Source: Promethearchaeota archaeon (GTDB lineage: Archaea; Asgardarchaeota; Lokiarchaeia; Sigyniarchaeales; SOKP01). Taken from it: DNA of 64,000 nucleotides. Below, in pieces: positions 6,156 to 37,508 of this stretch (positions are counted from its first letter, which is position 1; each line of letters begins with the position of its first letter). The notes below the pieces were generated by a model. That model ran no database searches. It had not been told where the DNA came from and was given only the letters and a program-made list of their open reading frames with translations. The stretch is from NCBI GenBank assembly GCA_016839705.1, contig JAEOTR010000079.1:1-64000 (forward strand), written 5' to 3'. Made by a program: the position numbers and the translations under genes.

Positions 6156-7808
6156 ATTATCGAAGAGGAAGAATTCATAGATTATGCGGAGTTTTTAGAG
6201 AAGATTAGAGCATGCGAGGTAAAGATTAGGGATATCGATGATCCCGTGAAGAGAACAGAATCAATACAAGAAATTATCTCATCATCGATTAACTATTCTA
6301 ATGAAATTGCACAGTCCGGGGAATATTTTGAAGCTGGTGAGTTTTTATATGCAGCGGCAATGATTATAGAGGATCTTGATTTTTCTGAAGCGCTTAAATT
6401 ATATGAACGGATTATTGAGTTATATAAGAAGCAAATTGTTGATTATAAATTACAGGCAAAGCTTCACGAAATCGCGGAGTTATATCTCAGAATTTCCGAA
6501 ATATCCATGGAAAAATTTCAAGACATAATTTCGGAAAAAAAAAATATCTTGAGCAGTATACAATTCTTAAAGCAAGAAAGCACTCTCCTAAAGGAATTTA
6601 ATGAAACAAGGAAACTTGCCCAAAATTACCAAAATATTGCAGAGTTATATCTAAAATTATCTGATTTTAAGAATTCTATAAAGTATTACGGTAGAGTTAT
6701 CAAAATTTCGAAAATTCATTATTACTATGATATGCTTTCTTACTCCTATCAGCAAATTGGTACTTGCTATGAAGAAATAGATGATTATAGCACATCTCAA
6801 GACATAATTTTAGAAGGTGTAGAATTTTTCTCAAATTTGGCAACAGAACTCGAAGAAAATAACGAGAATTTAACCTTAGCTCAAATATATCAGATATTAA
6901 AAAACCTTTATAAGATTTTAGCTGAAGAAGAAAACTATATTAATTTTTCCAAGAAAGAAGCTGGAGCTTACTTAGATATAGCAGAAGGTCTAGAAAAAAA
7001 CACTGAAAATTATCATAAGATTGCAAGATATTATCGGGGCGCGGGATTATGTTATCAAGAAATTGAAAATAATTTGATTGAATGCGCTTCCTGTTTTCTA
7101 TTAGCTGGAAATTTTTCTGAGAAAATTGAAGATTATAGTCAGGCGGCTATGAACTTTTTCGACGGTGCGAATATATTCAAGGGATTGAATAATATGGATT
7201 TAGCTTATAAAAATTTTATAAAGGCAGGGGATGATTACTGGAAAATAGGAAGTATTAATGAATCTACTGAAAGTTACTTGAATGCGTATGATATTGCTAT
7301 TGAAGGACAATTGGAATTTGACAGATACGGTATTTTCAATCAAATTGTTAGGGGATTAAATAAAATAGCAGAAGAAGATTTAAAAAATAAGAAGTTTTTT
7401 ACCGCAGCAACTCTCATTTTGGAGAGTATAAAATTTTATGAACAACTTGATACAGCCAAAGATTTTCTTTTACGGGAGATGGTTAATAATGTGTATCGCT
7501 ATTATTACCGTGCGGCAAATCTTAAGAAGATAAGTTCATCTCACATCATATTAAGCTATGTATTAGCCTCAATTTCATTAATTTTAAATGGGAAATTAGA
7601 TAAAGCTTGGAAAGTCATCTCGGAAATTGATTCAGAAGGTATTACTGTAAGAAAATTCAAAGAAATAATAAAGATAATGATTAATCGAATATCCGAAGGA
7701 GAAGAGGTTGTATTAGATGATTTTCCTTATAATTTAAGGAGACTCATTGAAAGTTCAGGAGAAATACTGTTTCTTTTAAAGTTATTTAAAGGATTTAAGT
7801 TAAATTGA
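6156..7808 (+). CDS. TPR-repeat (SNAP-like helical) protein, probable ATT start
   Basis: The protein is almost entirely helical hairpins of TPR type, for example QNYQNIAELYLKLSDFKNSI, YSYQQIGTCYEEIDDYSTSQ and YRGAGLCYQEIENNLIECAS. The overall look recalls soluble NSF attachment (alpha-SNAP) proteins and other TPR scaffolds. The first ATG/GTG/TTG start is GTG 6246, giving 520 aa. The frame continues upstream with coding-like sequence (IIEEEEFIDYAEFLEKIRAC) to a TGA at 6141. A Shine-Dalgarno GAGGAGATC precedes ATT 6156, so I place the start there (550 codons). No membrane segment is seen. It probably makes protein-protein contacts; the partner is unknown. Confidence 0.75.
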   Translation: MIEEEEFIDYAEFLEKIRACEVKIRDIDDPVKRTESIQEIISSSINYSNEIAQSGEYFEAGEFLYAAAMIIEDLDFSEALKLYERIIELYKKQIVDYKLQAKLHEIAELYLRISEISMEKFQDIISEKKNILSSIQFLKQESTLLKEFNETRKLAQNYQNIAELYLKLSDFKNSIKYYGRVIKISKIHYYYDMLSYSYQQIGTCYEEIDDYSTSQDIILEGVEFFSNLATELEENNENLTLAQIYQILKNLYKILAEEENYINFSKKEAGAYLDIAEGLEKNTENYHKIARYYRGAGLCYQEIENNLIECASCFLLAGNFSEKIEDYSQAAMNFFDGANIFKGLNNMDLAYKNFIKAGDDYWKIGSINESTESYLNAYDIAIEGQLEFDRYGIFNQIVRGLNKIAEEDLKNKKFFTAATLILESIKFYEQLDTAKDFLLREMVNNVYRYYYRAANLKKISSSHIILSYVLASISLILNGKLDKAWKVISEIDSEGITVRKFKEIIKIMINRISEGEEVVLDDFPYNLRRLIESSGEILFLLKLFKGFKLN

Positions 7809-18161: not shown

Positions 18162-20090
18162 TTGGATAATAAAGGATTAGGTACTACATTAGAATATTTA
18201 GAAGAAAAAGTTAAAGGATTAGGGTATGACCTTAAATTGGAAACTGGTGTGCTCTTCGAAATTTTAGAAAGAAAAGAAGAGGATTTCAAAGAATTTCAAA
18301 ACGAAATCATTTTAAAATGGGATGAGTTTACCCAAAAAAACCAGAAAAGGGTTATAAAGAGAACATTTACAACCTTTTTCTATGATAATTTTCATAATTT
18401 TTTTAAATATTTTTTGCGTAACTTCTTTGGATTTAATGAAGGTTCTTTAGAATTGATAAATAAAGAGAAAGTTTCTGATGAATTCTTATTTTTGGAGTAC
18501 AATTATTACTTAACCCAAGAGGAAGAAGAACTTTTTCAAAAATTTTCACGAAAATTCGAATCTGAAGTTTTTTTTGGTTTTTCTTTTCCAATGGGGTATC
18601 TCTATTTTATTATTCGACTTTTAGGTATTTTATTTCGGAAAGCAATTAAGGAACATATATTCATCTTGCTAGATGCAGCGATCGTCAAAACAAGCGACGA
18701 GAATACATCGTTGAATTTTATGATTATAATCAAGAACAGTAAAGATGAACTTTTACATAGCTACTTTGACATGGTGCTTTACTATTTTCTTAGACCCATT
18801 AAAGGCATTTCCGAAGATTACTTCAACAAACTTCTGAAAGGAAGAGAAAAATTATATCAAATGGCCCTGAATGATTATCCATTTGCAAAAGAAAAATTAG
18901 TTGATTTATTATATTATTTTTATACAAAATGTAGACTATTACAAAGCTTTTCTCCATTGTTGGATTTTTTTAATTTTGTGGGAGCAAGGGTGGAAGATTC
19001 TATATTTTCGAAAGTTAATATTATAAGAAAGGAATTTTTAGCAAATCTGGATGATTATAGTACTGAGAAAAAAAATGCTTTACTAGGATTTTTTGATTTC
19101 CTTGATAAAAAATCAACATTATACTCAACATTTCAAGCAAACAATCTACCCTCTCAAAAATCGCAACTAAATTTGTTTCTTTTATATTTGAAATATTATT
19201 TTGGAAGTGGACTTGAAGCTTTAGAAGTTGGAGATCTGCTCTTTTTACCCACAGTTTTTAAGAAAGCCTTAGATAGACACAATAAGAAAGTAGAGGACGT
19301 AATAGGGACAAATTCGATAAAAAATATTAAAAATTTTTTGAAATTCCTCTACACTCTGTCTAACATTGAGCATATTGATCTCTTTTTCTTAAAAATCTTC
19401 AAAAAAACCATATCACATGTGAATTATGGCTTTTTTAAGACTTTTTTAAAAAGCTTCAACTCGAATTTTACATCTAAAATTAATCAAGAAAATGAACTAC
19501 TCTCGGAAAACCCCGAAAACTTTCCCTTTACCTTTGATATAATTGTAGATCATATATGTAGAATTCTTTATGTAATAATCGATAAAATTTTTCTAAGGAC
19601 TAATCCTGATGATGCCTCCAAAAACTTTATTGATCCTAGGAGTCGTTATATAGGGAAAAACATTGCATTGAGGGTTTTAGAATTATTTGTATTTCAAGAT
19701 ATCAACTATAGCGACGATATTTGGCCCGATTTCGTAATTAGCTTAAATAAAGAACAGATTAGGAAGAATATTAAAAAAAAGTTCGATATTTTAATTCCAG
19801 AGACAAAATTCTATACAGATGAAGAGTTAACACAGATAATGATTACTTACAATATACAATCTTTCTCAGATCATCCATATTTTGAGGAATGGTTGATTGA
19901 CGAAGTGATCATCCCATTAAATGATTTCATTCTAAATATCCGTAATTTAGTAAAGGAACCATCTAGTGACATTGAAGTATACGAACAGCTAAGAGAGTAC
20001 TTCCTCTCTGATATTGAAGATAAAGAAATAATAAAAGAGTTTAAGTTTATTTGTCAGGAACTTGCCCCATTTTGGAAAAATCTTGATTAA
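18162..20090 (+). CDS. orphan helical protein, 642 aa
   Basis: Not recognised. It starts at TTG 18162 and is mostly alpha-helical with many Phe, Lys and Glu residues. One hydrophobic stretch lies near residues 130-150 (FFGFSFPMGYLYFIIRLLGI) and might touch a membrane, but there is no signal peptide. Charged helices follow to the end. No catalytic motif is seen. Composition resembles the 1224-aa orphan upstream (Asn/Lys/Ile/Phe-rich), although I see no clear sequence repeat between them. It is convergent with mobB. Confidence 0.75.
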   Translation: MDNKGLGTTLEYLEEKVKGLGYDLKLETGVLFEILERKEEDFKEFQNEIILKWDEFTQKNQKRVIKRTFTTFFYDNFHNFFKYFLRNFFGFNEGSLELINKEKVSDEFLFLEYNYYLTQEEEELFQKFSRKFESEVFFGFSFPMGYLYFIIRLLGILFRKAIKEHIFILLDAAIVKTSDENTSLNFMIIIKNSKDELLHSYFDMVLYYFLRPIKGISEDYFNKLLKGREKLYQMALNDYPFAKEKLVDLLYYFYTKCRLLQSFSPLLDFFNFVGARVEDSIFSKVNIIRKEFLANLDDYSTEKKNALLGFFDFLDKKSTLYSTFQANNLPSQKSQLNLFLLYLKYYFGSGLEALEVGDLLFLPTVFKKALDRHNKKVEDVIGTNSIKNIKNFLKFLYTLSNIEHIDLFFLKIFKKTISHVNYGFFKTFLKSFNSNFTSKINQENELLSENPENFPFTFDIIVDHICRILYVIIDKIFLRTNPDDASKNFIDPRSRYIGKNIALRVLELFVFQDINYSDDIWPDFVISLNKEQIRKNIKKKFDILIPETKFYTDEELTQIMITYNIQSFSDHPYFEEWLIDEVIIPLNDFILNIRNLVKEPSSDIEVYEQLREYFLSDIEDKEIIKEFKFICQELAPFWKNLD

Positions 20091-22777: not shown

Positions 22778-23050
22778 CTATTCTTTCCTTAAACTTTTAT
22801 CTCGTTGTGAGATTTGATGACCATGGATGGCGCACGAAATACAGTAGTATTTTGTCTTACTTGGAGCTTGAATTATCGTTCCTGACTTTTTTAATTCAGT
22901 ATACATCCGGGAGTCAACTAGAGAGACCCTTCTTGTTACCGCTTTAGCTTTGCTACGAGCAACAGTTCTACCACACTTAGTGCACTGAACTTTAGCATAC
23001 TGACCTTTTCTCGAGCCGCTCTTTCCACCGCTTTTTCTCTTTTTTGGAAT
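22778..23050 (-). CDS. rps26e: ribosomal protein eS26, apparent ATT start
   Basis: The 90-codon frame begins IPKKRKSGGKSGS when read from ATT 23050, which aligns with the MPKKRK start of eS26. The zinc site is intact: C23-x2-C26 in VQCTKCGR and C70-x2-C73 in YYCISCAIH, the family signature. It belongs to the small ribosomal subunit near the mRNA exit. There is no ATG, GTG or TTG start: upstream codons are GTT, ATA, CTG and then a TAG stop. ATT is the best start because of the alignment and because it lies four bases after TGAT, the same spacing as in two other genes here. eS26 occurs in TACK/Asgard archaea and eukaryotes. Confidence 0.88.
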   Translation of the reverse strand: MPKKRKSGGKSGSRKGQYAKVQCTKCGRTVARSKAKAVTRRVSLVDSRMYTELKKSGTIIQAPSKTKYYCISCAIHGHQISQRDKSLRKE

Positions 23051-23190
23051 AACTATCAGCTAGTTTTTATTTTTTTACGATTTAATTTCACGTTTATTTA
23101 CTAATTGAATTTTAGAAAACTTAAATATTTTTTCCTTAAGCGTAAAGAATTATGAGAATAAAATTAGAAAAAGAAAGAGTGTAGTTTACG

Positions 23191-25287: not shown

Positions 25288-25785
25288 TTATTTTTTCGTG
25301 AAAGGAAAAGGTTCTTTTTTACTTATGCCTTTGATCTTATCTTCAATTCTTAAAATTAAGCTTTGTAAGCAATTAAAGAGAATTTTTCTTATTATTTCAT
25401 AGTTAAGGTCGATTTCAATATCATTATCATGAAATTCATCAAATTTATAAAAGGCTTTGTAAACATTTTCAGTTTTTAGGATTTTATAAGAAGAATCGAC
25501 TAAAAAAGCATATAAATCTTCACTGTTATATTCGATTTTCATTATTAGAGAAAGCATAGCAAATTCTTTTTTACCACGAGCCCACTTAGACGGAAGCTCA
25601 AAATGGAAATTGATGATTTTCTTTTTCTTTGTAATAAGAACGATTTCAAAAAATGTGTCATCGATCTCTAAGTCAAAAAATTTCTTTAACTTATTTATGA
25701 TGTTTTCTTCTAGTCTTTCATCTGGAAAGGAAAGTAACACACTTGGACCTTGTATCCCGTCAAAATAAGACAAAACTAAATGCAC
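25288..25785 (-). CDS. longin-like small protein, Asgard type
   Basis: A 165-aa protein that starts HLVLSYFDGIQGPSVLLSFP. This is the beta-strand plus Gly-Pro turn seen in longin-like domains of Asgard small proteins. Alternating strands follow, then a C-terminal helix (EIIRKILFNCLQSLILRIED). Longin and roadblock folds act as platforms or regulators for small GTPases and vesicle trafficking in eukaryotes. It sits 37 bases downstream of a roadblock gene on the same strand, which suggests a shared operon and complex. No GTPase is encoded in the window. Confidence 0.6.
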   Translation of the reverse strand: MHLVLSYFDGIQGPSVLLSFPDERLEENIINKLKKFFDLEIDDTFFEIVLITKKKKIINFHFELPSKWARGKKEFAMLSLIMKIEYNSEDLYAFLVDSSYKILKTENVYKAFYKFDEFHDNDIEIDLNYEIIRKILFNCLQSLILRIEDKIKGISKKEPFPFTKK

Positions 25786-27157: not shown

Positions 27158-28135
27158 TTATTTCGAGGTTTTTTTTAATGATATACCCAGATTAAGGTTT
27201 TCAACAAGCTCACTAAAACGATTCCGAACAGTAACTTCTGTTACACAACTAACACGAGCTATACTTCTTTGAGTTCTACGTTCATTAGCAATAATACTTG
27301 AAGCATAAATCGCAGCAGCACATACACCTGTAGGCCCTCTACCTGAGGTCAATCCACGACTTTCTGCCATTCTAATAATTGATTTCGCTGTTTTCTGGCA
27401 TTCTGTTGTTAAATCTAACTCTGAAATAAATCTTGTAAGAAAATCCATTGGTTTAGTAGGATTTAGATTAAGCTCGAGCTCGATTGAAATAAATCTAAAC
27501 GATCGACTGATTTCTTTTTTGTCGACACGAGCAACTTCAGCAATTTCGTTCAACGTACGTGGTACTTTATACATTCTACATGCAGCATATAAACTTGCTG
27601 CTGCAACTCCTTCAATACTCCTACCACGGATTAAATGAGCACCAACAGCATCACGGTAAATTTTTGCGGCACACTCTCTTAAGTTTTTTTGAAGATCAAG
27701 ATTTGAAGCCATTCTATCAAGTTCACTAAGAGCAAATGTAAGGTTTCTTTCAGTTGCATCAGCTACTCTTATTCGACTTTGCCACTTTCGAAGTCTATAT
27801 ATTTGATCTCTTAATTTTGCAGGGATTTCCTTGCCAAAGATATCCTTGTTTTTCCAATCTATCATAGTACTGAGTCCTTTATCATGTATCATATACGTCA
27901 TAGGAGCACCGGTTCTAGTTCTCTTCTTCTTCTGATCTGCATCGAATGCTCTCCATTCTGGACCATTATCAATATATTTTTCGGAGTGTACTAAACCACA
28001 ATCTTCACAAACTAGCAAACCTCTATTTTCATCAAAAAATATATCATTCCCGCATTCTGTACAAATATCACCTTCTATTATCAAGTTTTCATTAGAACCC
28101 GAGTTTTTTTCTCTCCAACTTGAAATAGATACCAC
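27158..28135 (-). CDS. tfb: transcription initiation factor B (TFB, TFIIB homologue)
   Basis: A 325-aa protein with an N-terminal zinc ribbon (C25-x2-C28 and C43-x2-C46 in CTECGN and CEDCGLV). The B-reader/linker follows ([20 protein letters not shown]), then two cyclin repeats. Each repeat has the [20 protein letters not shown] / [20 protein letters not shown] pattern. It bridges TBP, BRE DNA and RNA polymerase in archaeal promoter opening. It lies directly downstream of gar1, a pairing found in many archaea. Length matches the family. Confidence 0.95.
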
Positions 28136-35742: not shown

Positions 35743-36323
35743 TTACTTAATTCTCCACAGATTCCTTAATTTTGCATAACTATTTACTTAATTTTATATT
35801 ACAAAAACAAATATGACATAAAAAACTAACCAAATGATTTAGATAAGTGTTTTAAAATTCTTTAAATTAACAAAAAATAAATACTTTGTAAGATGTTATG
35901 AGTATATAAGATTACTATTATACATATCTTAAAATTTAAATCAAAAAGATTAATCAAACAGATTACATCATTATAATTTTCAATCAAATTAGTAAAATAT
36001 CAAATTTTATCAATTAGTAAAAAAAATTATTCAATTACATAAATCAAACAAAAAAATTATTAGAAATATAATCCGTTCAGTAAATTTAAATATAATTGAT
36101 CAGACTTATAACAAGATATAAGAAGTAGGTTCATAAGTTAAGCTTAACAATAATCATAAGATTTCTATAATATCTAAAAGATATAGTATCTCTATTAGGA
36201 AAATCTAATTAGCATTGTTTCTAACTTAAAGAGTTAGATACTACTTCTTTTTTATGAGTTTACTCTAAATTTTGATTTATTGAATATAAAAATCAAACAT
36301 TAAATATGAAATAATAAAAGGAA
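35743..36323. other. AT-rich intergenic region with candidate small RNA
   Basis: From 35743 to about 36080 the sequence is extremely AT-rich with no gene. Positions 36118-36254 look like an independent RNA (listed separately). Then 36255-36316 is the immediate leader of dnaG. Confidence 0.45.
36118..36254 (+). ncRNA. candidate small structured RNA upstream of dnaG
   Basis: AAGAAGTAG at 36120-36128 pairs with CTACTTCTT at 36241-36249, closing about 112 bases, and a run of T follows. Inside lie the 12-base palindrome GTTAAGCTTAAC (36137-36148), and the hairpin TCTAAC (36220-36225) with GTTAGA (36233-36238). A TATA-like TTTAAATAT at about 36085-36093 is placed about 30 bases before the first stem. 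No open frame. It could also be a structured 5' leader of dnaG. No known family is recognised, so this is a structural inference. Confidence 0.4.
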
Positions 36324-36329
36324 GTGATT
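36317..36329 (+). promoter_or_regulatory. ribosome-binding site that decides the dnaG start
   Basis: AAGGAAGTGAT is a near-complete match to the anti-Shine-Dalgarno complement GGAGGTGATC. It covers the GTG at 36324, which is therefore unlikely to be the start. The next in-frame candidate, ATT at 36333, lies four bases after TGAT. The ATG of the dehydratase gene at 4354 has the same spacing from its TGATC. Confidence 0.5.
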
Positions 36330-37508
36330 AGAATTAATACTCAATCAGATTTTACAACTAAATATATTATTGAAGTGAAATTTAATATTAAAGGTGTGGT
36401 GGAGAAGAGTGACATTGTGGGGGCTATTTTTGGACAAACAGAAGGTCTGCTTTTGGATCTAGATTTAAGAGATCTTCAAAAATCTGGAAGAATAGGTAGA
36501 ATAGAGGTTGAGACTGAATCAAAAGAGGGAATATCAGAAGGTATCATCAAAATTCCCTCATCTTTAACTCGAAAGGAGACAGCATTATTAGCAGCTACTG
36601 TAGAAACAGTTTCAAGAGTTGGTCCTTGCGAAGCTGAGATTTTACTGATAGAAATCCGTGATGTGCGTGAAACTAAACGTCTGAAAATTATAGAGAGAGC
36701 AGCAGAACTTTTAAAAAAATGGGATCAGAAATCATTGGAGCAGAGTGAAATTGAAGAAAAGATGGATACTGACATTAAATTAGGAGAAATAATAACTTGG
36801 GGTCCTGAAAAACTCCCAGCCGGTCCGGAAGTAGATAGTGATAAAGATCTTATTATTGTGGAAGGTCGAGCCGATGTTCTTAATTTGTTACGTATAGGTA
36901 TTAAAAATACGATAGCAGTTCAGGGGACCCAAATACCCAAATCAGTGAAGGATTTAGTAAAAACGAAGAAAACAATCACTTGTTTTCTTGATGGGGATCG
37001 TGGTGGTACTATTATATTAAACGAATTAATGCAATTGATGAAATTAGATTATGTTGCAAGAGCTCCCGATGGATTTGAAGTTGAGGAATTAACAAGAAAA
37101 CAATTGGTTAAAGCATTGCAAAACAAGAGACCACCAAAAAAACTTAAAGAATTAAATACTAAAATTACAGAAGAAAGCGGAGATAGTAGTAAGGGAAACA
37201 GGCTTCATAAATTCTTAAAAAAGATGAAAATAAAAGATGATTCTAAAATAATGGAATTCATCAATGGGATTAAAACCGGTCATAGTATAGGTTTGGATAA
37301 GAATCTTGAGAAACTATTTGAGATTCCAGTTGGCGAATTGTTCGGAAAGATTAGAACCTTTAAGGATACTCATTACTTAATAATTGATGGAATTTTAACA
37401 AAACGTTTACTCTCGATTTCTATAAACATGAAAATTAAATTTATTGCTTGTAAAAATAAGGAAGAGGAATTAACCATTCCCGAGCAAATAATGGTGTTTT
37501 ATATTTAA
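36324..37508 (+). CDS. dnaG: archaeal DnaG-like primase (exosome-associated), likely ATT start at 36333
   Basis: About 394 aa. The N-terminal domain reads KGVVEKSDIVGAIFGQTEGL and SGRIGRIEVE, diagnostic of archaeal DnaG. A TOPRIM domain follows with DLIIVEGRADVLNLLRIG (the glutamate) and FLDGDRGGTIIL (the DxD-like acids), then a C-terminal helical domain. In archaea it can prime but is mainly found with the RNA exosome. The GTG at 36324 lies inside a strong ribosome-binding site, so translation more likely begins at ATT 36333. A structured RNA candidate is directly upstream. Confidence 0.9.
   Translation: MIRINTQSDFTTKYIIEVKFNIKGVVEKSDIVGAIFGQTEGLLLDLDLRDLQKSGRIGRIEVETESKEGISEGIIKIPSSLTRKETALLAATVETVSRVGPCEAEILLIEIRDVRETKRLKIIERAAELLKKWDQKSLEQSEIEEKMDTDIKLGEIITWGPEKLPAGPEVDSDKDLIIVEGRADVLNLLRIGIKNTIAVQGTQIPKSVKDLVKTKKTITCFLDGDRGGTIILNELMQLMKLDYVARAPDGFEVEELTRKQLVKALQNKRPPKKLKELNTKITEESGDSSKGNRLHKFLKKMKIKDDSKIMEFINGIKTGHSIGLDKNLEKLFEIPVGELFGKIRTFKDTHYLIIDGILTKRLLSISINMKIKFIACKNKEEELTIPEQIMVFYI

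Follow-up and report, generated by a model that had tools for sequence, protein, structure and literature searches.

Sequence comparison confirmed and enlarged a proposed AUU start for the ribosomal protein gene eS26: AUU, AUA and AUC (together AUH) appear to be used as start codons lineage-wide, fixed in eS26 within the genus of the source genome and in the fidelity factor aIF1 (SUI1) throughout the family. The window analysed is a stretch of 64,000 nucleotides from a Candidatus Lokiarchaeota MAG of 3.36 Mb in 97 contigs (G000). We suggest, at about an even chance, that a minority of genes in this Lokiarchaeial genus start at AUU or, more rarely, at AUA or AUC, that the output of these genes is set by aIF1-controlled stringency, and that aIF1 is self-limiting.

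The eS26 gene and its first codon

The minus strand was re-read against the initial annotation, which had described a complete eS26 frame without ATG, GTG or TTG start, with GTT, ATA and CTG as the sole other codons between the upstream TAG and the ATT, and with a TGAT ending four bases ahead of that ATT. All three descriptions and the coordinates agree with the sequence, the frame reading TAG (23062-23060) CTG ATA GTT ATT (23050-23048) CCA AAA AAG AGA ... TAG (22780-22778) (Table 1). The encoded protein scores 51.7 bits against the PF01283 profile (49.6 bits minus the start residue; cut-off 27 bits) and carries the basic N-tail and two CxxC pairs of the family, the Cys residues and PKKRK being invariant. 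The first in-frame ATG, GTG or TTG after the upstream TAG is the ATG of 'RMYTELKK', 48 codons past the ATT, and a start there would cost eS26 its basic N-tail and first Cys pair.

We detected eS26 in 100 of 117 relatives and read most of those loci. The codon ahead of CCN AAR AAR is ATT in 15 of the 17 separately assembled genomes read within the genus and ATA in the other two. ATG, GTG and TTG occur in none of them (0/17), so that ATG in close relatives, which the initial annotation had named as the sign of a sequencing error, is absent from the genus. Although the source data are a MAG, the probability of a sequencing or assembly error is negligible, because relatives assembled separately show the same codon (17 genomes with differing synonymous backgrounds). 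ATG and TTG occur only outside the genus, in the rest of the family and in more distant groups: the first codon is ATT (13), ATG (11), TTG (10), GTG (1), ATA (1) or GTT (1) in the other genera, mostly ATG (8) and TTG (13) in other Asgard classes, and ATG or TTG at the Bathyarchaeial loci. Genus-wide fixation of ATT/ATA at the eS26 start is supported by these counts. Prometheoarchaeum MAGs carry ATG (L328, L334) or ATT (L332), Sigynarchaeum has TTG (L329) and Harpocratesius has ATG (L346).

The true eS26 start could lie elsewhere, and an upstream CTG, ATA or GTT as well as an internal ATG all exist in the window copy, but we consider this highly improbable. Several relatives have the CTG in another frame or separated from the gene by an in-frame stop. 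In L032, L041, L071, L072 and L081 a TGA that lies in frame two to three codons 5' of the ATT (for instance TGA TTT TTT ATT CCT) leaves almost only the ATT, so the CTG is not a general eS26 start. The codons upstream of the ATT have no protein-level conservation among relatives, and the internal ATG drops the conserved N-tail and the first zinc ligands. With the homologous first codon kept in relatives and the alternatives barred by stops, the gene has the characteristics of a conserved AUH start, and initiation of the window eS26 at AUU is supported. At one further locus (L055, eS26 of G026) the N-terminus is seemingly doubled in another frame (ATG CTC AAA AAA AGA ... GTT CCC AAA AAA CGT), which may reflect a frameshift or an alternative start.

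The 16S rRNA of the source genome was not found in its assembly, and the anti-SD was taken from two genus members, G015 and G017, whose 16S 3' end is GGATCACCTCCT. The C of the GCTGAT element mismatches this end, and the eS26 SD is therefore weak (median duplex about -3.3 kcal/mol, control-gene median -3.0). The TATA-like element is conserved with its centre about 72 nt upstream, a position from which a leader of roughly 40 nt is predicted for eS26. No unusual fold was detected in the leader (z = 0.73).

Table 1. Features in the window and, where a contig or locus is named, elsewhere in the source genome
Feature	Position	Strand	Support
eS26 CDS, ATT start to TAG stop	22778..23050	-	PF01283 match; PKKRK N-terminus conserved across Asgard
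eS26 start codon ATT	23048..23050	-	ATT 15 / ATA 2 among 17 genus genomes; nearby upstream in-frame stops in several relatives
TAG in frame upstream of eS26	23060..23062	-	sequence
GCTGAT, weak SD-like element in GGTGAT register	23055..23060	-	kept in most ATT-type relatives
TATA-like element AATATTTAAGTTTTC, predicted promoter	23115..23129	-	position and sequence (ATAAATTTTTTAAG type) conserved across genus
aIF1 (SUI1) gene without ATG/GTG/TTG start	L154:11934-12251 (G000:C76)	-	AUH starts fixed in family
TFB gene, ATT start 28126-28124, SD-like AAGGTG	27158..28126	-	Pfam TFIIB 151 bits
TPR/SNAP-like protein gene, ATT start at 6156	6156..7808	+	Pfam SNAP 36 bits
HIT protein gene, fixed ATT/ATC start	C81:83098-83622		codon columns in genus
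Small conserved protein, own start GTG	25288..25785	-	relatives, same codon: ATG (5), ATT (2), ATC (1)
Toprim protein gene, probable ATT start	36333..37508 (ambiguous gene also as 36318-37508)	+	

AUH starts in aIF1 and other genes

The aIF1 start region in most genus genomes reads AGG TTG TGA nnn nnn nnn ATT AAA GAC GAC, and the start is ATT in 14/14 readable genus genomes, genome rows not being phylogenetically independent. In each of the 27 family genomes read, the primary copy has ATT at its start, apart from one genus with ATC and one with ATA, and an in-frame TAG lies one or two codons ahead of the ATT in L370 and L106. Fixation of an AUH start in aIF1 across the family is supported by this comparison. 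Among other Asgard families, ATA follows AGGAGG at the aIF1 start in f12 and in three f18 genomes; f2 has ATA in three genomes, and f17 has it where sister genomes instead carry ATG. CTG occurs once, and the start is otherwise ATG, GTG or TTG. The aIF1 SD is strong in the genus (-9.3 kcal/mol against the control median of -3.0). The gene thus combines the sequence features of a candidate infC-type start, namely a fidelity factor, a fixed near-cognate start and a strong SD.

Scanning of 335 kb of the source genome for ORFs without an early ATG, GTG or TTG detected about 15 outliers, including eS26 and aIF1. Start codons were compared column by column across at most 12 genomes of the genus within two syntenic regions, replacing an ortholog-pair scan that antisense ORFs had swamped. 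A hand count over both regions gave about 55 genes whose start column could be read, four of them with fixed AUH starts, a rough share. The TFB column is nearly always ATT in 30 family genomes (few ATC or ATA), and in many of them an in-frame TAA or TAG separates the GTG of the SD from the ATT. The TPR/SNAP-like gene has ATT in 9/9 genus genomes, with an in-frame TGA five codons upstream in eight of the nine. The S10-operon controls (uL22, uS3, uS19, uL29 and two neighbours, named from sequence and operon position) gave 98 NTG starts and no AUH. SD-anchored codon enrichment over all ORFs showed an ATT excess in the source genome and none in G015. For the Toprim gene the start is kept ambiguous, as the SD itself holds an in-frame GTG.

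Other candidate ATT starts that follow an SD-like sequence were seen at L160:2394-2855, L202:8488-9036 and 18921-19298, and L152:721-1596, in genes that include universal-stress-like, small GTPase and other proteins. Separately, an HdrA/FlpD-like (Fe-S, MvhD-type) gene on the minus strand (L150:13429-15825, G000:C81:73429-75825) is split by in-frame TGA codons that are conserved in G015 and probably encode selenocysteine.

Two genes (window 25288-25785 and C81:42505-42666) swap ATG and ATT/ATC at the same codon in close relatives, and since they alternate freely, some AUH use may be neutral. The same free switching makes neutral relaxed initiation the strongest rival explanation: the start machinery of these AT-rich genomes would tolerate AUH, and ATT would be a further allowed start with no regulation of eS26 or aIF1. 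We regard this as a serious possibility, while leaning against it. It agrees with the presence of AUH also in genes unrelated to translation and with the mixture of ATT, ATG and TTG at eS26 in other Lokiarchaeia genera. It accounts less well for the generally preferred ATG never being found at eS26 (17/17 in the genus) or aIF1 (27/27 in the family) when neighbour and operon genes mostly have it, and it fits poorly with the AUA at aIF1 in distant Asgard families, two of which have AGGAGG ahead of it. The lack of ATG in both genes therefore argues for constraint on eS26 in the genus and on aIF1 in the family.

In the source genome and in G015 the initiator tRNA carries a CAU anticodon whose loop contains an intron (L153:9714 onward and L191:17636 onward, both plus strand); ARAGORN missed it with the setting used. 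An AAU-anticodon initiator, considered from the initiator-like loop GGGCTAATAACCC, was rejected: the loop sits in an ORF and ARAGORN predicts no tRNA there. Because the only initiator tRNA found has CAU and the AAU loop was a false lead, the simplest reading is that the normal CAU initiator decodes AUH, presumably through a third-position mismatch. The set AUU, AUC and AUA would suit an inosine-type anticodon, and a dedicated initiator tRNA or a modified anticodon could read these codons as reassigned starts. We judge this very unlikely: in the genome, which is about 93% complete, the only initiator tRNA found has CAU, and the sole AAT-loop candidate lies in an ORF with no tRNA.

Proposed stringency control and comparison with known systems

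Archaeal aIF1 favours discrimination against non-canonical starts (PMC6237735). Since aIF1 disfavours non-AUG codons and itself starts with AUU, we infer that its own start would create a negative feedback loop, as in infC/IF3 and SUI1/eIF1. A fixed near-cognate start combined with a strong SD would be the expected design of a self-limiting fidelity factor. Translation of eS26 and of the other genes that share the weak codon would then scale with how far start-codon stringency is relaxed. In eS26, the weak codon together with the weak SD would give a low, tunable dose of a protein that competes with SD pairing. The wider form of this proposal, an aIF1-controlled AUU/AUA regulon in Asgard in which aIF1 limits itself and thereby governs how much is made from eS26, TFB and the other AUH genes, so linking the infC and SUI1 loops in the lineage closest to eukaryotes, is tentative and falls somewhat short of an even chance. 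No feedback logic is evident for the TFB, TPR and HIT genes.

Autocontrol of infC is lost when its AUU is changed to AUG, according to the title of Butler 1987, cited in PMC9845219. The initial annotation had compared the eS26 start with infC. The parallel holds for the type of start, while specificity to eS26 does not, since fixed AUH starts are present in at least four further genes. The nearest functional counterpart of infC is aIF1, an analogous fidelity factor with a fixed AUU/AUC/AUA start and, in the genus, a strong SD; eS26, a ribosomal protein, has a weak SD. The archaeal factor differs from IF3 in being non-homologous, in using AUA and AUC too and in sharing AUH with several other genes, and the feedback is a proposal made here. 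Eukaryotic SUI1/eIF1 resembles aIF1 in that the proteins are orthologous (PF01253) and their own genes carry weak start signals. There, as cited in PMC6237735, the autoregulation of eIF1 relies on an AUG in a poor context, while here the near-cognate codon itself would be the weak signal, behind an SD that is strong in the genus.

For eS26, the suggestion that low-efficiency AUU initiation sets its dose is plausible, because the SD is also weak, eS26 competes with the SD duplex and its occupancy is low on purified Saccharolobus 30S subunits (PMC11698992). Archaeal eS26 acts at the exit channel, wrapping the 16S 3' end and excluding the SD:anti-SD duplex (PMC11698992). The TACK protein (Saccharolobus, PMC11698992; Bathyarchaeia loci) belongs to the same family as the Asgard one, but Bathyarchaeial genes start with ATG or TTG. 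Against dose control stand the frequent ATG or TTG outside the genus and an SD no stronger than controls, unlike that of aIF1 or the bS21 gene.

An eS26-specific feedback, in which eS26-free ribosomes would favour the eS26 mRNA because eS26 blocks the anti-SD, has a precedent in Flavobacterium, where bS21 blocks the anti-SD and rpsU is autoregulated with an exceptionally strong SD (PMC9976891), and it draws on the mutual exclusion of eS26 and the SD duplex (PMC11698992). Both are mRNA-exit-side ribosomal proteins that block SD pairing and have an unusual start region of their own. Bacteroidota rpsU, however, has a strong extended SD, while eS26 here has an AUU start and a weak SD (-3.3 against the control median of -3.0 kcal/mol), so the defining feature of the bS21 type is missing and we rejected feedback of that type for eS26. 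AUH starts also reach beyond eS26, and feedback through eS26 itself is unlikely.

We know of no role of eS26 in start-codon discrimination, and control through aIF1 stringency remains the reading that we prefer.

Implications for Lokiarchaeia

No description of AUU as a start codon in archaea was found in the archaeal literature searched. If the AUH starts are correct, gene callers limited to ATG, GTG and TTG would overlook or shorten eS26, aIF1 and a TFB in Lokiarchaeia, with effects on the start-site and SD statistics of these genomes. The proposal makes it testable whether fidelity factors have come to control start-codon stringency through a weak start of their own genes in all three domains, and in it eS26, an exit-channel protein, would share this kind of start.
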